Shown: positions 1,460 through 40,195 of the stretch, piece by piece
Numbering within the stretch: position 1 is the first letter of the stretch
Layout: every line of letters begins with the position of its first letter
From: a virus
IMG/VR virus record: IMGVR_UViG_3300020215_000041
Location: 1-40,195 of that record
Strand: one strand, 5' to 3'
Length of the DNA: 40,195 nucleotides
Notes under the pieces: generated by a model
Told to the model about the DNA's origin: nothing
What the model saw: only the letters and a program-made list of their open reading frames with translations
The model's database searches: none
Made by a program: the position numbers and the translations under genes

Positions 1460-1507
1460 ATGCAAAGCGGGTCCAAAAAAGGCCGCAAAGGCCGGAAGGG
1501 GTACTAA
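1460..1507 (+). CDS. Tiny basic peptide (15 aa)
   Basis: A 16-codon ORF encodes MQSGSKKGRKGRKGY. It sits behind a strong GGAGG (about 1448-1452), and its stop overlaps the ATG of the next gene (TAATG at 1505-1509). Lys/Gly-rich micro-ORFs of this kind occur in many phage late regions. The tight coupling suggests its translation delivers ribosomes to the holin candidate. It could instead be only a coupling leader. Confidence 0.5.
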   Translation: MQSGSKKGRKGRKGY

Positions 1508-1683
1508 TGCCTACGAATAGAACAACCTGGATGGTCATATTGGCGGCGATTTCCGCAGCCGCTATTTATGCTCAGACGGTCGTAACAAACGGATTTGATT
1601 TTGGTGAGTTCATCAAATTCGTTAATTCCGAGGCCGTGATCGCAGCTCTCGGATTCTTAAGGGCAGCCGTCGCAAAAAAGTAA
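1507..1683 (+). CDS. Small membrane protein, putative holin (58 aa), zero-frame product
   Basis: ATG 1507 follows GGAAGGGG by a few bases and is coupled to the 15-aa ORF. One clear membrane segment (residues 8-26, WMVILAAISAAAIYAQTVV) and a second weakly hydrophobic helix (about 40-54, EAVIAALGFLRAAV) give a class II-like holin shape. A longer ORF from ATG 1432 is open in this frame but lacks as good a ribosome binding site. The ORF ends GCA AAA AAG TAA, that is, a stop directly after an A AAA AAG slippery heptamer (see frameshift site). The short product therefore probably coexists with a longer one. The holin role is inferred. Confidence 0.65.
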   Translation: MPTNRTTWMVILAAISAAAIYAQTVVTNGFDFGEFIKFVNSEAVIAALGFLRAAVAKK

Positions 1684-1740
1684 CGCCGCGGACTCTCCAC
1701 CAGTTAGATGCGCTACTTCTCGCGCTAAAACTGGTGGGGA
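1659..1740 (+). promoter_or_regulatory. Candidate programmed -1 ribosomal frameshift signal (dnaX-like)
   Basis: Four parts line up. An SD-like AAGGG (1659-1663) lies 10 bases upstream of a perfect A AAA AAG slippery heptamer in the correct phase (1674-1680). The zero-frame stop TAA follows immediately (1681-1683). Thirteen bases after the heptamer a 12-bp stem begins (1694-1705 with 1729-1740, eleven Watson-Crick pairs and one G-U). The -1 frame is open through this point to 1961. E. coli dnaX uses the same heptamer, also preceded by GC, with an upstream SD and a downstream hairpin. The 13-base spacer is longer than usual. Confidence 0.7.
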
Positions 1741-1961
1741 ATGTCCGCATTGAAACCGGCCGCCTATACACTCCTGACGGCACCCCTTACGCCGGCTTCA
1801 AGGTGACTATCGGATCGGTGCTAGACCCCTCCTCAGTCAAACGCACCTACACCGATATAGAGGCTATTTTCCAAAAGAATAAGACTCCCTATAAGATTCA
1901 CGAAGAATTTAGGGAGGGTAGCAAGTTCAAGTCTTATACGATCGAAACCGGCCCAATATAA
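1680..1961 (+). CDS. Trans-frame extension of the putative holin (93 aa after the -1 shift)
   Basis: The frame opens at 1626 after a stop and contains no ATG, GTG or TTG until GTG 1734, which lacks a ribosome binding site and would cut off a coding-looking stretch (VTPRTLHQLDALLLALKL). A -1 shift at 1674-1680 joins it to the 58-aa membrane protein and gives a 151-residue protein. The soluble domain is small and beta-rich in appearance, ending YTIETGPI; no family is recognised. As a membrane-anchored version of the same protein it could regulate hole formation or reach the periplasm, depending on topology. If frameshifting is wrong, the ORF is a 75-aa hypothetical protein from GTG 1734. Confidence 0.6.
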   Translation, partial: VTPRTLHQLDALLLALKLVGNVRIETGRLYTPDGTPYAGFKVTIGSVLDPSSVKRTYTDIEAIFQKNKTPYKIHEEFREGSKFKSYTIETGPI

Positions 1962-2137: not shown

Positions 2138-3085
2138 ATGCCACCAATCAATAACCGATTTAAAAAGCCAACATTATCCGAAGATCTTTTAGCGGATTAT
2201 CTGACATACCTTTCAGACCTTGCTCAGATGACCCCCGATTCCATCCGGCATAACCGGCGCTGGATCGAACGAATTGAGGAGGCCTATGGAGGATCTATTC
2301 TGGGTGCCCAGACGGCCTCTCAAGTGAATGCTGCCATCCTTGAGGTGGCAAAGACCCGAAAAGTCGCCTATAACGGATCTCCTCAATCAGAGGATACTGG
2401 CCAATTGAAGTTTAGGCTTGGCCGGGCGGTCGTCGGATATATGCGTTGGGCCTATTCTGAAAACTTTATCCAAAAGAATATCTACCAAAAAAATCCATTT
2501 AGAAGACCTCATAGCCCTGAGGCAAATTGGCATGATGAGGAGAGGACCATGGCTTTATATAAGGATGAGAGTTTTTCTTTATATGATCGCGCTCTGATTC
2601 GCTTTCTTATAGATACCGGCTGCCGGGTGGGGGAGATGTGCCAAATCAAGCTTGAGGATGTTGATCTTGATAATGGACACGCGAGGATCTTTATGCCAAA
2701 GGTCAAACGCCTTAAAGATGTCCCGTTATCAGAGCATACCTGTAAAACCTTGAAGGCTCTAATAAAACGTAGGCGGCACACTCCGTTTTTATTCCACAGT
2801 AGGCAAAGTGCCACCATAAGCCCTAACGCAGTGAGGATTCGCCTAAGAAAGTTGGGTCAGAAATTGGGCTATAGGATCAACCCTCATTCCTTCCGACACG
2901 CGGCCGGAACATTATGGGTAAAACACCATGGCGAGATACAAGCTCAAAAGCTTTTAGGCCATGTGGACCATGCGGCCACCGCAAGATACACGCATTATCT
3001 CTTGAAGGACCTCAAAGAAATGCAAAGTGCAATTTACGAGGGAAGGCTGGCGCCCAGAGAGTTAGTATCCGCGTCCAAAAAATAA
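2138..3085 (+). CDS. int: Tyrosine-recombinase integrase
   Basis: A 315-residue protein of typical phage integrase length. An N-terminal SAM-like core-binding domain (about residues 10-110) precedes the catalytic domain. The catalytic set is complete: R163 (TGCRVGEM), a lysine near 188-190 in the beta-hairpin, H250 and R253 (HSFRH), H275 (LGHVDH) and nucleophile Y284 (ARYTHY). It should carry out site-specific integration and excision between attP and a host attB. Start ATG follows AAGGGA. No excisionase is recognised nearby; the small ORFs just downstream are candidates. Confidence 0.95.
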   Translation: MPPINNRFKKPTLSEDLLADYLTYLSDLAQMTPDSIRHNRRWIERIEEAYGGSILGAQTASQVNAAILEVAKTRKVAYNGSPQSEDTGQLKFRLGRAVVGYMRWAYSENFIQKNIYQKNPFRRPHSPEANWHDEERTMALYKDESFSLYDRALIRFLIDTGCRVGEMCQIKLEDVDLDNGHARIFMPKVKRLKDVPLSEHTCKTLKALIKRRRHTPFLFHSRQSATISPNAVRIRLRKLGQKLGYRINPHSFRHAAGTLWVKHHGEIQAQKLLGHVDHAATARYTHYLLKDLKEMQSAIYEGRLAPRELVSASKK

Positions 3086-4661: not shown

Positions 4662-5243
4662 ATGGGAAGACAGATGGACCTAAGAAGCGAAGTCGAGGAA
4701 CAGCTTGTGGAAGCTACCGCCTCGCTCCTGAAATCGTTGGAAACCAAGGATCTAAGACCCGTGGCAAAGGCCGTCCAAACGCTGAAGTTCGCCCAGATGG
4801 TGAACCAGGGCAAAGCCAGGGATCGCCGGAAGGCCGCGGCGATCTGGGATGGCAAGGAACGCCGGGCGGCTCTATTGATCGAGGCTCTTTTGGCCGGGGT
4901 GCTGCTATTTGTGGCCGTCCCCGTCTCCGCGGCCGAAGGCTTTGCCACCTATTACACGACCGCCTCATGCAAGGCCGAGGGCACAAGCGGGATTTGGACC
5001 GCCTCCAAGGAACGCTTCAATGAAAAGGCGCTGACGTGCGCCCTTCGTAGACATGACTTCGGCAAAGAATACCTCGTCTACTCCCCTGACACCAATAGAT
5101 CGATTGTCGTTAAGCACAACGATTTTGGGCCTAGCGAGGTGAGCTATTACCAACACGGGAACATCATCGACCTCACACCTGCCGCCATGAAGGCTCTTGG
5201 AATCAAAGGCCGGGGGCGGGTATTCGTGCAGGAGGTCAAATGA
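4662..5243 (+). CDS. RlpA-like cell-wall protein with N-terminal cytosolic helix and signal anchor (193 aa)
   Basis: Residues 1-68 are charged and helical. Residues 69-90 are a hydrophobic segment ending PVSAA, compatible with a signal anchor or late-cleaved signal. Residues 92-193 form an RlpA-type double-psi beta-barrel: GFATYYTT at the start, then KHNDFGP with D154, and HGNIIDLTPAAMKALGI with D170, which match the conserved RlpA aspartate motifs. RlpA of Pseudomonas is a septal lytic transglycosylase acting on stem-less glycan. Start follows AGGGGGAA. No other endolysin is recognised in the genome, so this may be the lysis enzyme, but it lies with early genes. It could instead act in entry or host-wall remodelling. 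Confidence 0.8.
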   Translation: MGRQMDLRSEVEEQLVEATASLLKSLETKDLRPVAKAVQTLKFAQMVNQGKARDRRKAAAIWDGKERRAALLIEALLAGVLLFVAVPVSAAEGFATYYTTASCKAEGTSGIWTASKERFNEKALTCALRRHDFGKEYLVYSPDTNRSIVVKHNDFGPSEVSYYQHGNIIDLTPAAMKALGIKGRGRVFVQEVK

Positions 5244-5938: not shown

Positions 5939-6809
5939 AACCATCGACCGGACACAATTCCTAGGATCGTCCGAAATGGGCATCCTCTTGGGCCTCGATC
6001 AGTATAGGTCGCCTCTTAAGCTCTGGGCTATCAAGACCGGGCGCCTGACCAATGAGATCACCTCCGAGGCCGCCGAATGGGGTACCCGCCTTGAGGGTGT
6101 CGTGGCTCAGAAGTTCGCCGAAAAGAATGGCTGCAAGCTCATGGCCTATAAAAAGCGGTTCGTCCACCCGGTATATCCATTCATTTCCTGCGAGCTTGAC
6201 CGGATCATCGTTGGAACCGATGAGATCGTCGAGGTCAAGACTTGCCATGACCGGCTTATCAAGAATTGGTCAGGCGAGGATATGCCACAGAATTACTGTG
6301 TGCAGCTAAATACCGCCCTTGGTCTTTCAGGCCGAAAAAAAGGCCACATCGCCCTCTTGGCCGGCGGCCAGAAATACATCGAAAAGCACATGGATTTCGA
6401 CCAAGAGCTATACGACATGGTTATCGAAAAGGCGGTCGCTTTCTGGAATAACCACGTTCTGGCCGACCTCGCGCCAGTCGCCATCGCCATGGATAACGAC
6501 GAGCCGGCCGACACCCTTGACCTTCTTTACCCCGCCTCTAATTCCCAGGCCATCGAGTTTTGCGGGGACGTTGCCAAAGAAATTGATGTTTTAGTCGATG
6601 ACCGTTTAGGGGCCTTGGAATCCATGAGCCACCTAAAGGAAGAACTAAACAAGATCGAGGCCAGGATAAAGCAGCTTATGGGCGAGAACGAGGAAGGGAC
6701 TACCGCCAATAGCCGCATTTCATGGAAGACGGTGAACAGGAAAGAATACACCGTCAAGGCCTCGAGCTATCGACAAATACGGACGACTAAAACAGGAGAA
6801 GCAAAATGA
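5931..6809 (+). CDS. YqaJ-family alkaline exonuclease
   Basis: 292 residues from ATG 5931, which follows GGAGA; an ATG at 5871 is further upstream but would overlap the preceding gene fully. The lambda-exonuclease-like nuclease motifs are present: R7-T-x-F-L-G-SSE start, E55 in WGTRLEGVVA, D90 in CELDRI, and E101-V-K103 in EIVEVKTC, followed by Q125 region (QLNTAL) typical of YqaJ. It should resect double-stranded DNA 5'-3' to give single strands for RecT, whose gene overlaps its stop. Confidence 0.93.
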   Translation: MTKTIDRTQFLGSSEMGILLGLDQYRSPLKLWAIKTGRLTNEITSEAAEWGTRLEGVVAQKFAEKNGCKLMAYKKRFVHPVYPFISCELDRIIVGTDEIVEVKTCHDRLIKNWSGEDMPQNYCVQLNTALGLSGRKKGHIALLAGGQKYIEKHMDFDQELYDMVIEKAVAFWNNHVLADLAPVAIAMDNDEPADTLDLLYPASNSQAIEFCGDVAKEIDVLVDDRLGALESMSHLKEELNKIEARIKQLMGENEEGTTANSRISWKTVNRKEYTVKASSYRQIRTTKTGEAK

Positions 6810-35296: not shown

Positions 35297-36628
35297 GTGC
35301 CTGATTTCCCGCGCTACCAATCCAAAGGTCAAATAACCACCCAGCAGCCCGCCGTACAGGCCGCAGACGACACTACAGGCGAAATGCTGGGCCAGGTCGC
35401 CAAGGTAGGCCAGAACGTCCAGGAAGCGGCCTTTAAATGGTCCAATACCGTCGATACGGTACAAAAGACGGCCGCCACGGCAAATTTCAAATCAGGGCTA
35501 TTGGACATCACCCAAAGGGCCCAAGACGACCCCGATTACAATAACTCCGACCAGTATTTCAAAGAGATCGAGAAACTACGAACCCAAAGCCTGAAGGGCT
35601 TCTCATCTAAAGCCGCCGAGGCGCAAGCCGCCGTCGAGCTTGGGTATGATGCGAAAGTTGCCCAGATCCAGATCCAGAATCTTTACAAGAAGAAGATGAT
35701 CGATGTGGGACAGGCGAGCATGCTTAAACTAATCGATACCGAAATCAATAACCCTAGTGAATCCAGCCTGTCAAATATTCAAAATATTCTTAATACACAG
35801 GTGGCCTCTGGAATCGTAGACCATAAGGATGCCTATAAGCTTTATCAGGACTCGGAGCAAAAGGTCAAATTTAACACATTTCTTAGAGATTTCCGAAACG
35901 ACCCGGTCGCTGCCGAGAAAGCATTCACTAAAAATACATACGGGCTAGATATCGAGACCTCCGAAAAGGCCCGCATCAAACTAAAAGAGCTTAAGGCCAT
36001 GCAACGAGAACAAGAGGGTAATTTGTATGGCGATATGAGTTTGAGGGTAACGACCGGAGAGATTACAGAGGATGAGATAAATGAAGCTATCGCCGCCAAT
36101 AAAGCCAATCCCAACGAAGGAATAACAGAGGCGCACGGAAAGCAGCTCATTAATGCTTATTACAAGGACGTGACAAAAAGAATCGGAGCCAAAGAGTTTA
36201 AGAAGCATAGACAAGCCATCGATTTCGTTTTTGCTGATTCTTACCAGGACAGAATCAAAGGATATGACGCGATCCTGGAAGCCTACACAGACGGGCTTAC
36301 CAAAGAGGAGAGCCAGTTTTTAAAGAAGATATTGGATACAAAAAAGGACGTCCAATTCGCTAATAAAGCGGCCGCTGGCAAGAAGATGCTAGAAACCCTG
36401 CTCGGGGCGAGGCCAAAGGATATCCAGAGAGAAACACAATCCCTTCTTTCCTATGCTCAAAGAATAGCTGAGGGCATGACACCCGAAGCCGCGGCACAAT
36501 CGACAGCGCTCGACATCATACACAAAGACCACCCGGCGACCGTTGCAGATCCCGATCTTCTTGTCGCATTCACTCCCATGAAAGGCTTGAGGAACATCCC
36601 AAAGGTAAAACGTGAAAATTCTGCTTGA
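35297..36628 (+). CDS. Internal virion protein, gp15-like (443 aa)
   Basis: GTG start behind GAGG. Almost entirely helical with charged repeats (FKWSNTVDTVQKTAATANFKSGL, AEAQAAVELGYDAKVAQIQIQNLYKKKMID, EQEGNLYGDMSLRVTTGEITEDEINEAI). By place and helical architecture it corresponds to the T7 gp15 ejection protein. No enzymatic motif. Overlaps the next gene by 17 bases. Confidence 0.75.
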   Translation: MPDFPRYQSKGQITTQQPAVQAADDTTGEMLGQVAKVGQNVQEAAFKWSNTVDTVQKTAATANFKSGLLDITQRAQDDPDYNNSDQYFKEIEKLRTQSLKGFSSKAAEAQAAVELGYDAKVAQIQIQNLYKKKMIDVGQASMLKLIDTEINNPSESSLSNIQNILNTQVASGIVDHKDAYKLYQDSEQKVKFNTFLRDFRNDPVAAEKAFTKNTYGLDIETSEKARIKLKELKAMQREQEGNLYGDMSLRVTTGEITEDEINEAIAANKANPNEGITEAHGKQLINAYYKDVTKRIGAKEFKKHRQAIDFVFADSYQDRIKGYDAILEAYTDGLTKEESQFLKKILDTKKDVQFANKAAAGKKMLETLLGARPKDIQRETQSLLSYAQRIAEGMTPEAAAQSTALDIIHKDHPATVADPDLLVAFTPMKGLRNIPKVKRENSA

Positions 36629-39600
36629 AGACAAGAATAAGGTAGTCGATATACCCGAGGGCTTGCAGCCTAATGAGATCGAGGCCGAGCTGCGAAAGTT
36701 CTACTCCCCGGAAGAACTGCATGGCTCTACGACCTTTGAGGAAAGAGAGGGATATCGCATCCGCAGGGGCCGGGCTTCCGTAGACGACGGCAATGCTTGG
36801 TATAAGGCCATGGTAGGCGAGATATCAATGGACGATGCCAGAAAGCAATCGGAATCAATAATGGCCGAGTTTACCCCAGACAACGATGAGAAACATCAAG
36901 CCTATAACTGGCCTGAGCGGTTCGCGGGTGCCGCAACGGAAATCCTGCCTTACATGATGGATTCGGCTATAACTGGCGCCGTTTACGGGGAGGCGATGGG
37001 GGCGACATTTGCCGGCGGCGCCATGCTGGCCGGCCAGGCCGGACCACAAGCTTTTATCCCTGAGGAAATAGTCACGGTTCCAGGGGCGTATATCGCCGGC
37101 AGATCGGTGGGACAGGTTTGGGGCACATGGATGAATGCGACCAAGGTAGAGGGCGGCAATGCCTATAAAACCATGGTTGAGGGAGGTATTGACCCGGCAA
37201 CGGCCCGAAACTTTGCGCTACCGGCGGGGTATCTCATAGGGGCGCTTGAGCTTTTACAGGTGGAGCGTCTTATCCCTTCTTTTGGCCGGCAGGGCATAAC
37301 GGAGTTTTTGAAGAAAGCGGCGGTTAATAAAGGCTCCAAGGCTTACCAAACTTTAAGCAAGGCTTCGGCGCAGATGGCGAAGAATTTAGCCGCAACCACC
37401 GCCATTGAAACTGGCCAAGAGATGACGCAGGAGATCGTCAACCTGACCGCAGAGGTAGGAGCCGGCATTTATAACGATATGGCCGAGGAGGAAGGTTATA
37501 TCGGTCCCGGCGAAGAAGATATCAAAGAGCGCCTACAAAATACCCTGACAAACTCCCTTCTTGGATTTCCATTATTGGGCCTTCCAAGGGCAATCCATTC
37601 AACGGTATCACTTAATGGCAGGGATCGTTTCGCAGAAAGACCCCTGACCAAGCAAGCCAAAGAATCGTTAAGTGGTGATTTAACAGAACTGATCCAGGAC
37701 GTAAGCAAGGTCGAGGAATTTAAGGAATTTCAAGATAGCCTTGGTGAAGAATTTGGCGATAAAGAAGCCGCTGAGTATGGCTTCGATAACCGCGTTCTTT
37801 TTGAAGAAGCAATCTGGAATGCCTCGCGCAATGTGAAAGAGGGCGATATGTACGCCGAAAATCTACAAATGCGCCAAAAGGACAAGGCAAACCTAATGGG
37901 GCCTATAGGCAACGCTTATCAGACCGCCGCCGAATCTGTCTCAAGGATCGCCGAACCAATATCCACCCGCCTCAATACAATCAATCCCAAGCTTAAGAAT
38001 AGGATGCGGAGGTATGAGTTTGACCTAAAGCAGCGAACCTTACAGGACGAAAAAGCCGTTTTTCCTTTCCTTCAAAAGTACGACAAGCTTTCTGAAAAAG
38101 ACCAAGCCGACCTGGACTTGGCCTTCAAAAACAATGACGACGCCAGGATCAAAGAAATCATCGAACGAAATAGCATGGCCGCGGAGTATAAGGCCGTCCG
38201 GCACACGCTGGATGCCCTATATGAGAGGGCTACGAAGACCGGCGTGAATATCGGCTACATTCCAGAGTATTACCCAAGGCAGATCAAGGACGCCAAGGGG
38301 ATGCTCAAGCTCTTTAAGCAACAGGACGAATGGCCGGAAATGCAAAAGGCCATCAATGAAAAAGAGGAAAAGCTAGGGCGCAAGCTTACCGATAACGAGA
38401 AGGCCGAGCTGCTTAATTCCATGCTACGGGGCTATAGGGGCAAGAATAGGACGCCCGGCAACATCAAAAAGCGTGAGATATCCGTCGTTACGCCCGAGTT
38501 AAACAAGTTCTACCACCAGGCCCCCCAAGCTCTTTTGAATTACATCTACGGCGTCAATGATTACGTCGAGGCCCGCCGCTTCTTTGGTAAGTCGGTTAAG
38601 GGATCCGAAATGAGCGAGGAAGCAACCAAAGCGAGCATTGGGAATTTTGTCTTAAACCTTCTTGAATCCGGTGAGATTGAAGGCAAAGACGCCCAAAGCG
38701 TGTCCGATGTTCTTTTGGCCCGGTTCTCCACGAAAGGCCCAGGGGAGATAACCCGGGCCGTTAAAAATATTTCCTATATGGAAACGATGGGTAGCGTGAC
38801 ATCTGCCATTACCCAGATCGGTGACATCGCCTTCTCTCTTTATAAGAATGGCTTTTATAACACCGGAAAGGCCCTCGCCAAGCGCCTAGGCGGCCAGGCT
38901 GAGATCACCCGAGAAGATATAGGAATTGAGAGGATTGCCGAGGAGTTCGCAGACAAATCAAAGACGGGTGCCGCTCTCGATAAAGTCTTTAAGATGGTCG
39001 GGCTTAACTGGATGGATCGACTAGGAAAAGAAACGCATATTAATGCGGCGCTCGAGAAGTTTCACAAATTGGCAAAGAACGAGCCGGCAGCTCAAAACGA
39101 AAGACAAGCAAAATTTGCCTCTTTAATAAACAATAAAGACCTTATCTCCGAACAAAGCCGAAAAGAGGCTGAGTTTATAGGCAATAATCTTGAGGAATTT
39201 GACGAAGCTTACAGGGCCAAGCTCAAAAAAGAGTATAAGACAGACAACCCCAATATTATCTCGTCTGATGTTGCCCGGACCGCTGAAATGGAGGGCCGAG
39301 GAAAATTTACTGATCAAGCTTCCGCTGATCGCCATGCTGGGGTATCCGCATACAGCAAAATGCTTTATGAGGAAATGCTTTCTGATCAGACGCTTTGGGA
39401 TAAAAACGTCATGGTCATGGCTGGCGTTTCCGGCGCCGGCAAGACAGGAGCGGTAAGAAAACTAGCTCCCAAAGATTTGAATGACGATATAGTTTACGAT
39501 ACGAATGTTGCTTCTCTTGAATCCGGGGTACGAATTATCGAACAAGCCCTAGCCTCCAATCCCGAAAGGGAAGTTCAGGTTTTTTATGTAGATCGGGATC

Positions 39601-40195
39601 CAATAAAGGCATTTGAAGAAGGCGTTATACCGCGTTATTTGGACCCCGAGGGAGATCACCGCGTACTGCCAATAAAAGCACATTTAAATAACATAAAATC
39701 AAGAGAAGCAATTAAGCAACTATATGAGCGTTACAAGGATAACCCAAGAGTTCGGTTTGAATTTATTGGAAACTACGGTGAGAAGGGGGCTTATACCGAG
39801 ACCTCTATTGAAAATATAGCTTCTAAGGTGTATAATATTGATGAAATAGGAGCAATCCTTGAAAAAGGAATCAAAGAAAAACTCAACGCCGGAATCCTCA
39901 CCAAAGAAGCCGCAGACGCCTTCCGCGGAAAGACATCTTCGATTCACGGAGATATGCGCCCGTCGGGTGCAGACTCTAACCAAGAACACAGCCTCAAATT
40001 AAGATCCAAACCAAAAACCCCTTCTAAGTTTTATAATCAACTTGTAGATATTTTCGGTGATAAAGAAGCCGGAAATGTTATCGATGATTTAATCAGTAAA
40101 ACTCCCTCCGAAAACGTCAAGTTTTTGCTTTTTTCAGAGCTTGCCGATGTCCAACCGATCGCTTTATCCGAAATGCCCGAAACCTATCTCCGTGC
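36612..40195 (+). CDS. Giant ejection protein, 5' part, with inserted zeta-toxin-like P-loop domain
   Basis: The start is GTG 36612, eight bases after AAAGG and in frame with bases 1-629 across the circle; the full product is 1,361 residues. Residues 1-250 are helical with Gly/Ala-rich hydrophobic stretches. The 850 region has MDRLGKETHINAALEKFHKL, typical of LPD38-like polyvalent phage proteins. A P-loop follows at 938-945 (GVSGAGKT), then VYDTNVAS and VFYVDRDPIKAFEEGVIPR, which is like zeta-toxin kinases. The LPD38-type part resumes near 1172. By analogy with T7 gp16 it enters the host with DNA; the kinase domain might act on cell-wall precursor or proteins. No transglycosylase motif is seen. 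Confidence 0.85.
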   Translation, partial: MKILLEDKNKVVDIPEGLQPNEIEAELRKFYSPEELHGSTTFEEREGYRIRRGRASVDDGNAWYKAMVGEISMDDARKQSESIMAEFTPDNDEKHQAYNWPERFAGAATEILPYMMDSAITGAVYGEAMGATFAGGAMLAGQAGPQAFIPEEIVTVPGAYIAGRSVGQVWGTWMNATKVEGGNAYKTMVEGGIDPATARNFALPAGYLIGALELLQVERLIPSFGRQGITEFLKKAAVNKGSKAYQTLSKASAQMAKNLAATTAIETGQEMTQEIVNLTAEVGAGIYNDMAEEEGYIGPGEEDIKERLQNTLTNSLLGFPLLGLPRAIHSTVSLNGRDRFAERPLTKQAKESLSGDLTELIQDVSKVEEFKEFQDSLGEEFGDKEAAEYGFDNRVLFEEAIWNASRNVKEGDMYAENLQMRQKDKANLMGPIGNAYQTAAESVSRIAEPISTRLNTINPKLKNRMRRYEFDLKQRTLQDEKAVFPFLQKYDKLSEKDQADLDLAFKNNDDARIKEIIERNSMAAEYKAVRHTLDALYERATKTGVNIGYIPEYYPRQIKDAKGMLKLFKQQDEWPEMQKAINEKEEKLGRKLTDNEKAELLNSMLRGYRGKNRTPGNIKKREISVVTPELNKFYHQAPQALLNYIYGVNDYVEARRFFGKSVKGSEMSEEATKASIGNFVLNLLESGEIEGKDAQSVSDVLLARFSTKGPGEITRAVKNISYMETMGSVTSAITQIGDIAFSLYKNGFYNTGKALAKRLGGQAEITREDIGIERIAEEFADKSKTGAALDKVFKMVGLNWMDRLGKETHINAALEKFHKLAKNEPAAQNERQAKFASLINNKDLISEQSRKEAEFIGNNLEEFDEAYRAKLKKEYKTDNPNIISSDVARTAEMEGRGKFTDQASADRHAGVSAYSKMLYEEMLSDQTLWDKNVMVMAGVSGAGKTGAVRKLAPKDLNDDIVYDTNVASLESGVRIIEQALASNPEREVQVFYVDRDPIKAFEEGVIPRYLDPEGDHRVLPIKAHLNNIKSREAIKQLYERYKDNPRVRFEFIGNYGEKGAYTETSIENIASKVYNIDEIGAILEKGIKEKLNAGILTKEAADAFRGKTSSIHGDMRPSGADSNQEHSLKLRSKPKTPSKFYNQLVDIFGDKEAGNVIDDLISKTPSENVKFLLFSELADVQPIALSEMPETYLR
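40069..40195. repeat. Terminal direct repeat, right copy
   Basis: Second copy of the 127-base sequence that opens the window. Removing one copy gives a 40,068 bp circle. Confidence 0.95.

Follow-up and report, generated by a model that had tools for sequence, protein, structure and literature searches.

The window analysed here, a stretch of viral DNA of 40,195 nucleotides (IMG/VR record IMGVR_UViG_3300020215_000041), contains a gene that is best explained, with a probability of about 0.85, as one from which a temperate phage makes two products by recoding: a short membrane protein and a frameshift-extended form carrying a conserved domain. Programmed frameshifting at this gene is in itself very likely, judging from the slip signal at the end of the membrane ORF and from four homologues. 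The features of the gene are listed in Table 1.

Table 1 Features of the frameshift gene and its upstream neighbour in the window.
Feature	Position	Strand	Basis
Upstream neighbour, 122-aa coiled-coil protein with one C-terminal TM segment	1074–1442	+	ORF reading
Shine–Dalgarno sequence AAGGGG of the membrane ORF, 5 nt 5′ of ATG 1507	1496–1501	+	Read directly
Zero-frame ORF, 58-aa small membrane (holin-like) protein	1507–1683	+	ORF reading, hydropathy profile
Internal SD-like AAGGG, 10 nt 5′ of the heptamer	1659–1663	+	Sequence
Slippery heptamer A AAA AAG, in phase; UAA 1681–1683 directly 3′	1674–1680	+	Sequence
−1 frame coding the 93-aa downstream domain (codons 1680–1958, stop 1959–1961)	1680–1961	+	Frame analysis
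Putative stimulatory hairpin, 18-bp stem, 7-nt spacer after the heptamer	1688–1748	+	Folding

The zero-frame ORF encodes a protein of sequence MPTNRTTWMVILAAISAAAIYAQTVVTNGFDFGEFIKFVNSEAVIAALGFLRAAVAKK. Its hydropathy profile peaks at 2.0 over 17 residues from near residue 10, with a second, weaker maximum of about 1.3–1.6, and the protein combines the small size, transmembrane (TM) segment(s) and basic C terminus that characterize holins. The ORF ends GCA AAA AAG TAA, with the heptamer in phase as the original prediction had it. Equally borne out were the Shine–Dalgarno (SD)-like AAGGG, at a spacing of exactly 10 nt, and a −1 frame (open over 1626–1958) in which no ATG, GTG or TTG precedes GTG 1734, itself lacking an SD. 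The expected product lengths of 58 and 151 residues also agree with the frame arithmetic for the predicted fusion (58 + 93 aa). The predicted stem had to be redrawn: the 12-bp inverted repeat (1694–1705/1729–1740) is present, but it is the inner part of an 18-bp stem that begins 7 nt, not 13 nt, after the heptamer and pairs 1688–1705 with 1729–1740 and 1743–1748, leaving a 2-nt bulge. The hairpin has a folding energy of −39 kcal/mol (z about −7), and an equally stable one was found in none of 300 shuffles and none of 300 random windows of the contig. A transcription terminator or a known RNA family at this position was checked and rejected. Bacterial −1 frameshifting typically involves stimulators 5–8 nt downstream and SD-like elements upstream of the site, and at prokaryotic frameshift sites stimulators are sometimes absent (PMC4066793).

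Homologues of the downstream domain were reached by two routes. Related phages, followed through the C-terminal end of the large virion protein, led to contig L003, whose version of the domain is 57% identical over 79 residues; DNA-motif and alignment scans added L061/L101, L100/L105 and L102/L113. The resulting set comprises five independent genes (window, L003, L061, L102 and L105), all on uncultured phage contigs, the four homologues of the domain showing 48–58% identity. L058 was not counted as independent because its sequence is identical to that of L003 in this region. A direct search of viral contigs with the fusion protein gave no match, genome contigs gave no homologue of the domain, and plasmid and phage records gave no credible relative, the best phage hit being to Erwinia phage AH06 (E 0.05, part of the domain). 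A profile search of 24 related contigs matched L003 only, and weak matches in L044, L045, L049 and L054 were judged to be non-relatives.

The five domains align with 28 invariant columns, and in all ten pairwise comparisons of the domain frame it is the third codon positions that differ most (differences at positions 1/2/3: 37/30/58 for window–L003 and 24/23/57 for L003–L061). This third-position excess across ten pairs marks the downstream −1 frame as a conserved coding sequence that is under selection as a protein, and not a frame open by chance. AlphaFold2, run on the five sequences, predicted a helix-strand-strand-helix-strand-strand fold (pLDDT 82, pTM 0.71). Foldseek with this predicted fold returned no confident relative. 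A LAGLIDADG half-domain was rejected, the likeness to I-DmoI being at the level of topology only (E about 0.04, TM about 0.5, no sequence match), as was a ribosomal S6-like fold, alike only in topology. Sequence searches of Pfam, NCBIfam, PHROGs and the PDB, including a domain profile against the PDB, found no match for the domain.

The contig carries an exact 127-bp direct terminal repeat (1–127 = 40069–40195), so it is probably a complete circularised (or circularly permuted) phage genome of about 40,068 bp. The frameshift gene lies 3′ of virion/tail-fibre genes, beside small membrane genes, and is adjoined by an integrase (2138–3085). The large virion protein ORF (36612–40193) contains, relative to L003, an in-frame insertion of about 305 aa at 39081–39995; within it is a kinase-like domain with a P-loop (GVSGAGKT), which scores E 0.05 with Pfam Zeta_toxin and resembles a phage 'thymidylate kinase' (E 7e-6). 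Two small minus-strand genes, 626–766 (−) and 800–991 (−), sit between the virion gene and the membrane genes; one encodes a TM protein and the other a signal-peptide protein matching phrog_29674, and relatives of one or other occur in L002, L003 and L044. A second slip candidate, A AAA AAA at window position 605 at the end of the virion gene, was discarded: its heptamer is absent in L003 and its −1 frame crosses the minus-strand genes. At 4662–5243, about 2.7 kb from the frameshift gene, lies a candidate lysis enzyme, an RlpA-like protein of the double-psi beta-barrel (lytic transglycosylase) type, which has a single TM segment and relatives in L041 and L044.

On the N-terminal side, comparison of the proteins indicates that the membrane modules divide into at least two types that are not related to each other. 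One, a two-TM module with a WLxGKKT motif, is common to L003 and L061; over 20 residues it is weakly similar to L002, from a phage closely related to that of the window (virion protein, 73%) and with no match to the domain on its contig. L102 and L105 carry a second type, phrog_9685 (E 1.4e-5 and 0.025), which is also found alone, without the domain, as a 55-aa protein in podovirus MW202485, where a spanin-like gene follows immediately and an annotated hemolysin gene, xhlA, lies about 1.8 kb upstream. Each of the two types is thus also met in a phage lacking the domain (L002 and MW202485). The membrane module of the window matches neither type.

A role of the gene in lysis, as a holin or otherwise, stands at even odds on this evidence. 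It is suggested by the small size and TM segments of the protein, by a small one-TM coiled-coil gene located 5′ of the frameshift gene in all five contigs, and by the neighbourhood of the stand-alone podovirus relative. Pfam and PHROG holin models gave no significant match for the window protein, the best holin-profile score being to a PHROG holin (E 0.07, with the fusion as query), and no endolysin gene was recognised close to the gene. It is quite conceivable, if not our preferred reading, that the frameshift is real but serves another purpose, the long form being a membrane-tethered effector (of superinfection exclusion, say, or of virion/host interaction) with the short form as its by-product or partner. 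This would fit the lack of a holin or lysis profile match, the conservation of the domain behind interchangeable membrane modules, and the position next to an integrase, where accessory genes are common; it sits less well with the coiled-coil gene retained in every contig and with the occurrence of the L102/L105-type module alone near xhlA and a spanin-like gene.

The two-product reading is supported by the frame relation in the homologues. In all five genes the domain frame lacks a plausible start and overlaps the end of the small membrane ORF, out of frame. Among the four homologues, three have the −1 relation with an in-phase heptamer, and L105 requires a +1 or −2 shift. L003 resembles the window most closely: its ORF (6436–6645) ends GAA AAA AAG TAA with the heptamer at 6636–6642, a GGAG (6622–6625) lies at the same spacing of 10, and 9 nt after the heptamer there begins a stem with a folding energy of −21 to −22 kcal/mol (z about −3). 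The two stems are wholly different in sequence, whereas A AAA AAG UAA, the SD spacing of 10 and a strong stem are kept, so that in both genes an SD and a downstream structure are clear and properly spaced. L061 has A AAA AAC AAA UAG in phase with a modest hairpin; in L102 both U UUA AAC and C CCA AAC are in phase, with U UUA AAA further up, and no hairpin is better than those of shuffles. In L105 (2960–3050) the sequence reads AAG TTT TTT CGT AAA GGG CAG TAA TAA, and two hairpins come after it (z −3.2 over 55 nt). The TTT TTT C in this stretch is a possible +1 site, and the sole in-phase −1 heptamer, G GGA AAG, runs into a stop at once. Conservation in homologues, which the original prediction had proposed as its check, thus holds for the heptamer in four of the five genes but is not universal, because L105 keeps the arrangement in a +1/−2 relation; for the SD and stem it is clear in the window and L003, but not in L061 or L102.

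In single genes an in-phase heptamer is not surprising: A AAA AAG is fairly likely by synonymous choice (0.11–0.34) because of the Lys-Lys end. The probability of at least one in-phase heptamer per overlap was 0.11 (window), 0.34, 0.14 and 0.31 under a synonymous-codon model and 0.019, 0.090, 0.059 and 0.037 under nucleotide shuffling. The joint chance, taken as the product of the per-gene values over the four −1 genes (window, L003, L061 and L102), was 0.0016 and 3.7e-6, respectively.

These sites also bear on whether the shift is ribosomal. The fusion could arise by transcriptional slippage on the A-run, and homopolymers are indeed present in the window (A6), L003 (A7) and L105 (T6). Runs of 6–7 are short for transcriptional slippage, however, L102 has no run longer than 5 near U UUA AAC and C CCA AAC, and the placement of SD and stem fits ribosomal frameshifting; we consider slippage of the polymerase improbable. 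Still less probable is a separate gene for the domain, begun at a weak or non-standard start (GTG 1734 or CTG 1731) by coupling of termination and reinitiation. Potential starts do exist, since in the window, L003 and L105 the first ATG, GTG or TTG coincides with the beginning of the conserved core or slightly precedes it; but GTG 1734 in the window and TTG 6663 in L003 lack an SD and are located within or next to the hairpin, and two invariant positions, L16 and L18, fall in the helix upstream of GTG 1734. Independent initiation in L061 and L102 would truncate the core, because there the first such codon falls inside it. A homologue whose domain had its own ATG and SD had been named as what would refute the frameshift; none has a plausible start, with the qualification that in L105 alone the domain may be initiated separately at GTG 3040, which has AGAAGGA close upstream. 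That the split reflects gene decay or a fault of sequencing or assembly, as the differing frame relation of the single contig L105 might suggest, is a negligible prospect given that the split recurs in five distinct genes with coding constraint and that homopolymer error does not explain L102.

Together, these comparisons strongly support the predicted fusion of a membrane protein to a downstream domain by programmed −1 frameshifting, while the labels 'holin-like' and 'lysis-type' that came with it are best read as provisional. They also indicate that the domain stays behind the frameshift while the membrane module and the slip signal change. That the out-of-frame fusion is kept despite such changes suggests that the ratio of short to long product is a selected property.

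From the sequence elements we infer slippage itself, its ratio, the membrane topology, the lysis role and an antiholin-like regulation, as follows. Most ribosomes would stop at UAA 1681 and release the 58-aa small holin-type membrane protein. Pairing of AAGGG to 16S rRNA and the 18-bp hairpin at the ribosome entry would cause a pause, in which a fraction of ribosomes would slip by −1 on A AAA AAG, bypass the UAA and produce the 151-aa protein, with the same membrane anchor followed by the conserved domain of about 75–90 residues. By the positive-inside rule this domain would probably be cytoplasmic. The ratio of short to long form, fixed by the site, would be the property likely to be selected, and the long form would enter the membrane assemblies of the short form and adjust their action, lysis timing being one example; an antiholin-like or timing role of the long form is a further step that presupposes the lysis role. 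More tentatively, a holin-type gene might set the ratio of a pore-former to its C-terminally extended regulator by frameshifting, with the domain passed between unrelated membrane modules and re-acquiring a recoding signal (−1 or +1/−2) each time. If the two-product reading is true, the gene would set two isoforms of a small membrane protein at a fixed ratio from a single start, and its domain would seem to be retained downstream of a recoding site even as the partner module is exchanged. Why some proteins arise solely by frameshifting would then be a question accessible to experiment in a gene only a few hundred bases long.

In phages, programmed frameshifting is well documented for tail chaperones and for a small number of virion genes, T7 capsid 10A/10B among them. 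The checked open-access literature describes none in a holin-type membrane gene. The likeness to E. coli dnaX drawn in the original prediction holds for the layout of the signal (A AAA AAG, an SD-like element about 10 nt upstream and a stable hairpin a few nucleotides downstream) but not for the outcome: the dnaX shift gives a shorter product (gamma), whereas the window gene would give a longer one with an added domain and has a stop codon directly 3′ of the heptamer. The OrfA/OrfAB genes of IS3/IS911 type likewise combine A AAA AAG with an SD-like GGAG and a downstream structure and extend an ORF into a second frame, but the window gene is a phage late-type membrane-protein gene with no transposase or helix-turn-helix. 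The lambda G/GT tail assembly chaperones offer a parallel, in that one phage gene gives a short product and another lengthened by a frameshift, and among their relatives the arrangement is kept while slip sites and even the direction of shift vary. Tail chaperones have a soluble N-terminal part and a gene just before the tape measure; the window gene has a hydrophobic N-terminal part that is a membrane protein and not a soluble chaperone, small membrane genes and an integrase nearby, and a domain without similarity to known families. The lambda S105/S107 holin/antiholin pair, by analogy only, provides two isoforms of one small membrane gene in a set ratio; there they come from dual starts and differ by a 2-aa N-terminal extension, whereas in the window gene they would differ by a C-terminal domain of about 93 aa added by recoding.
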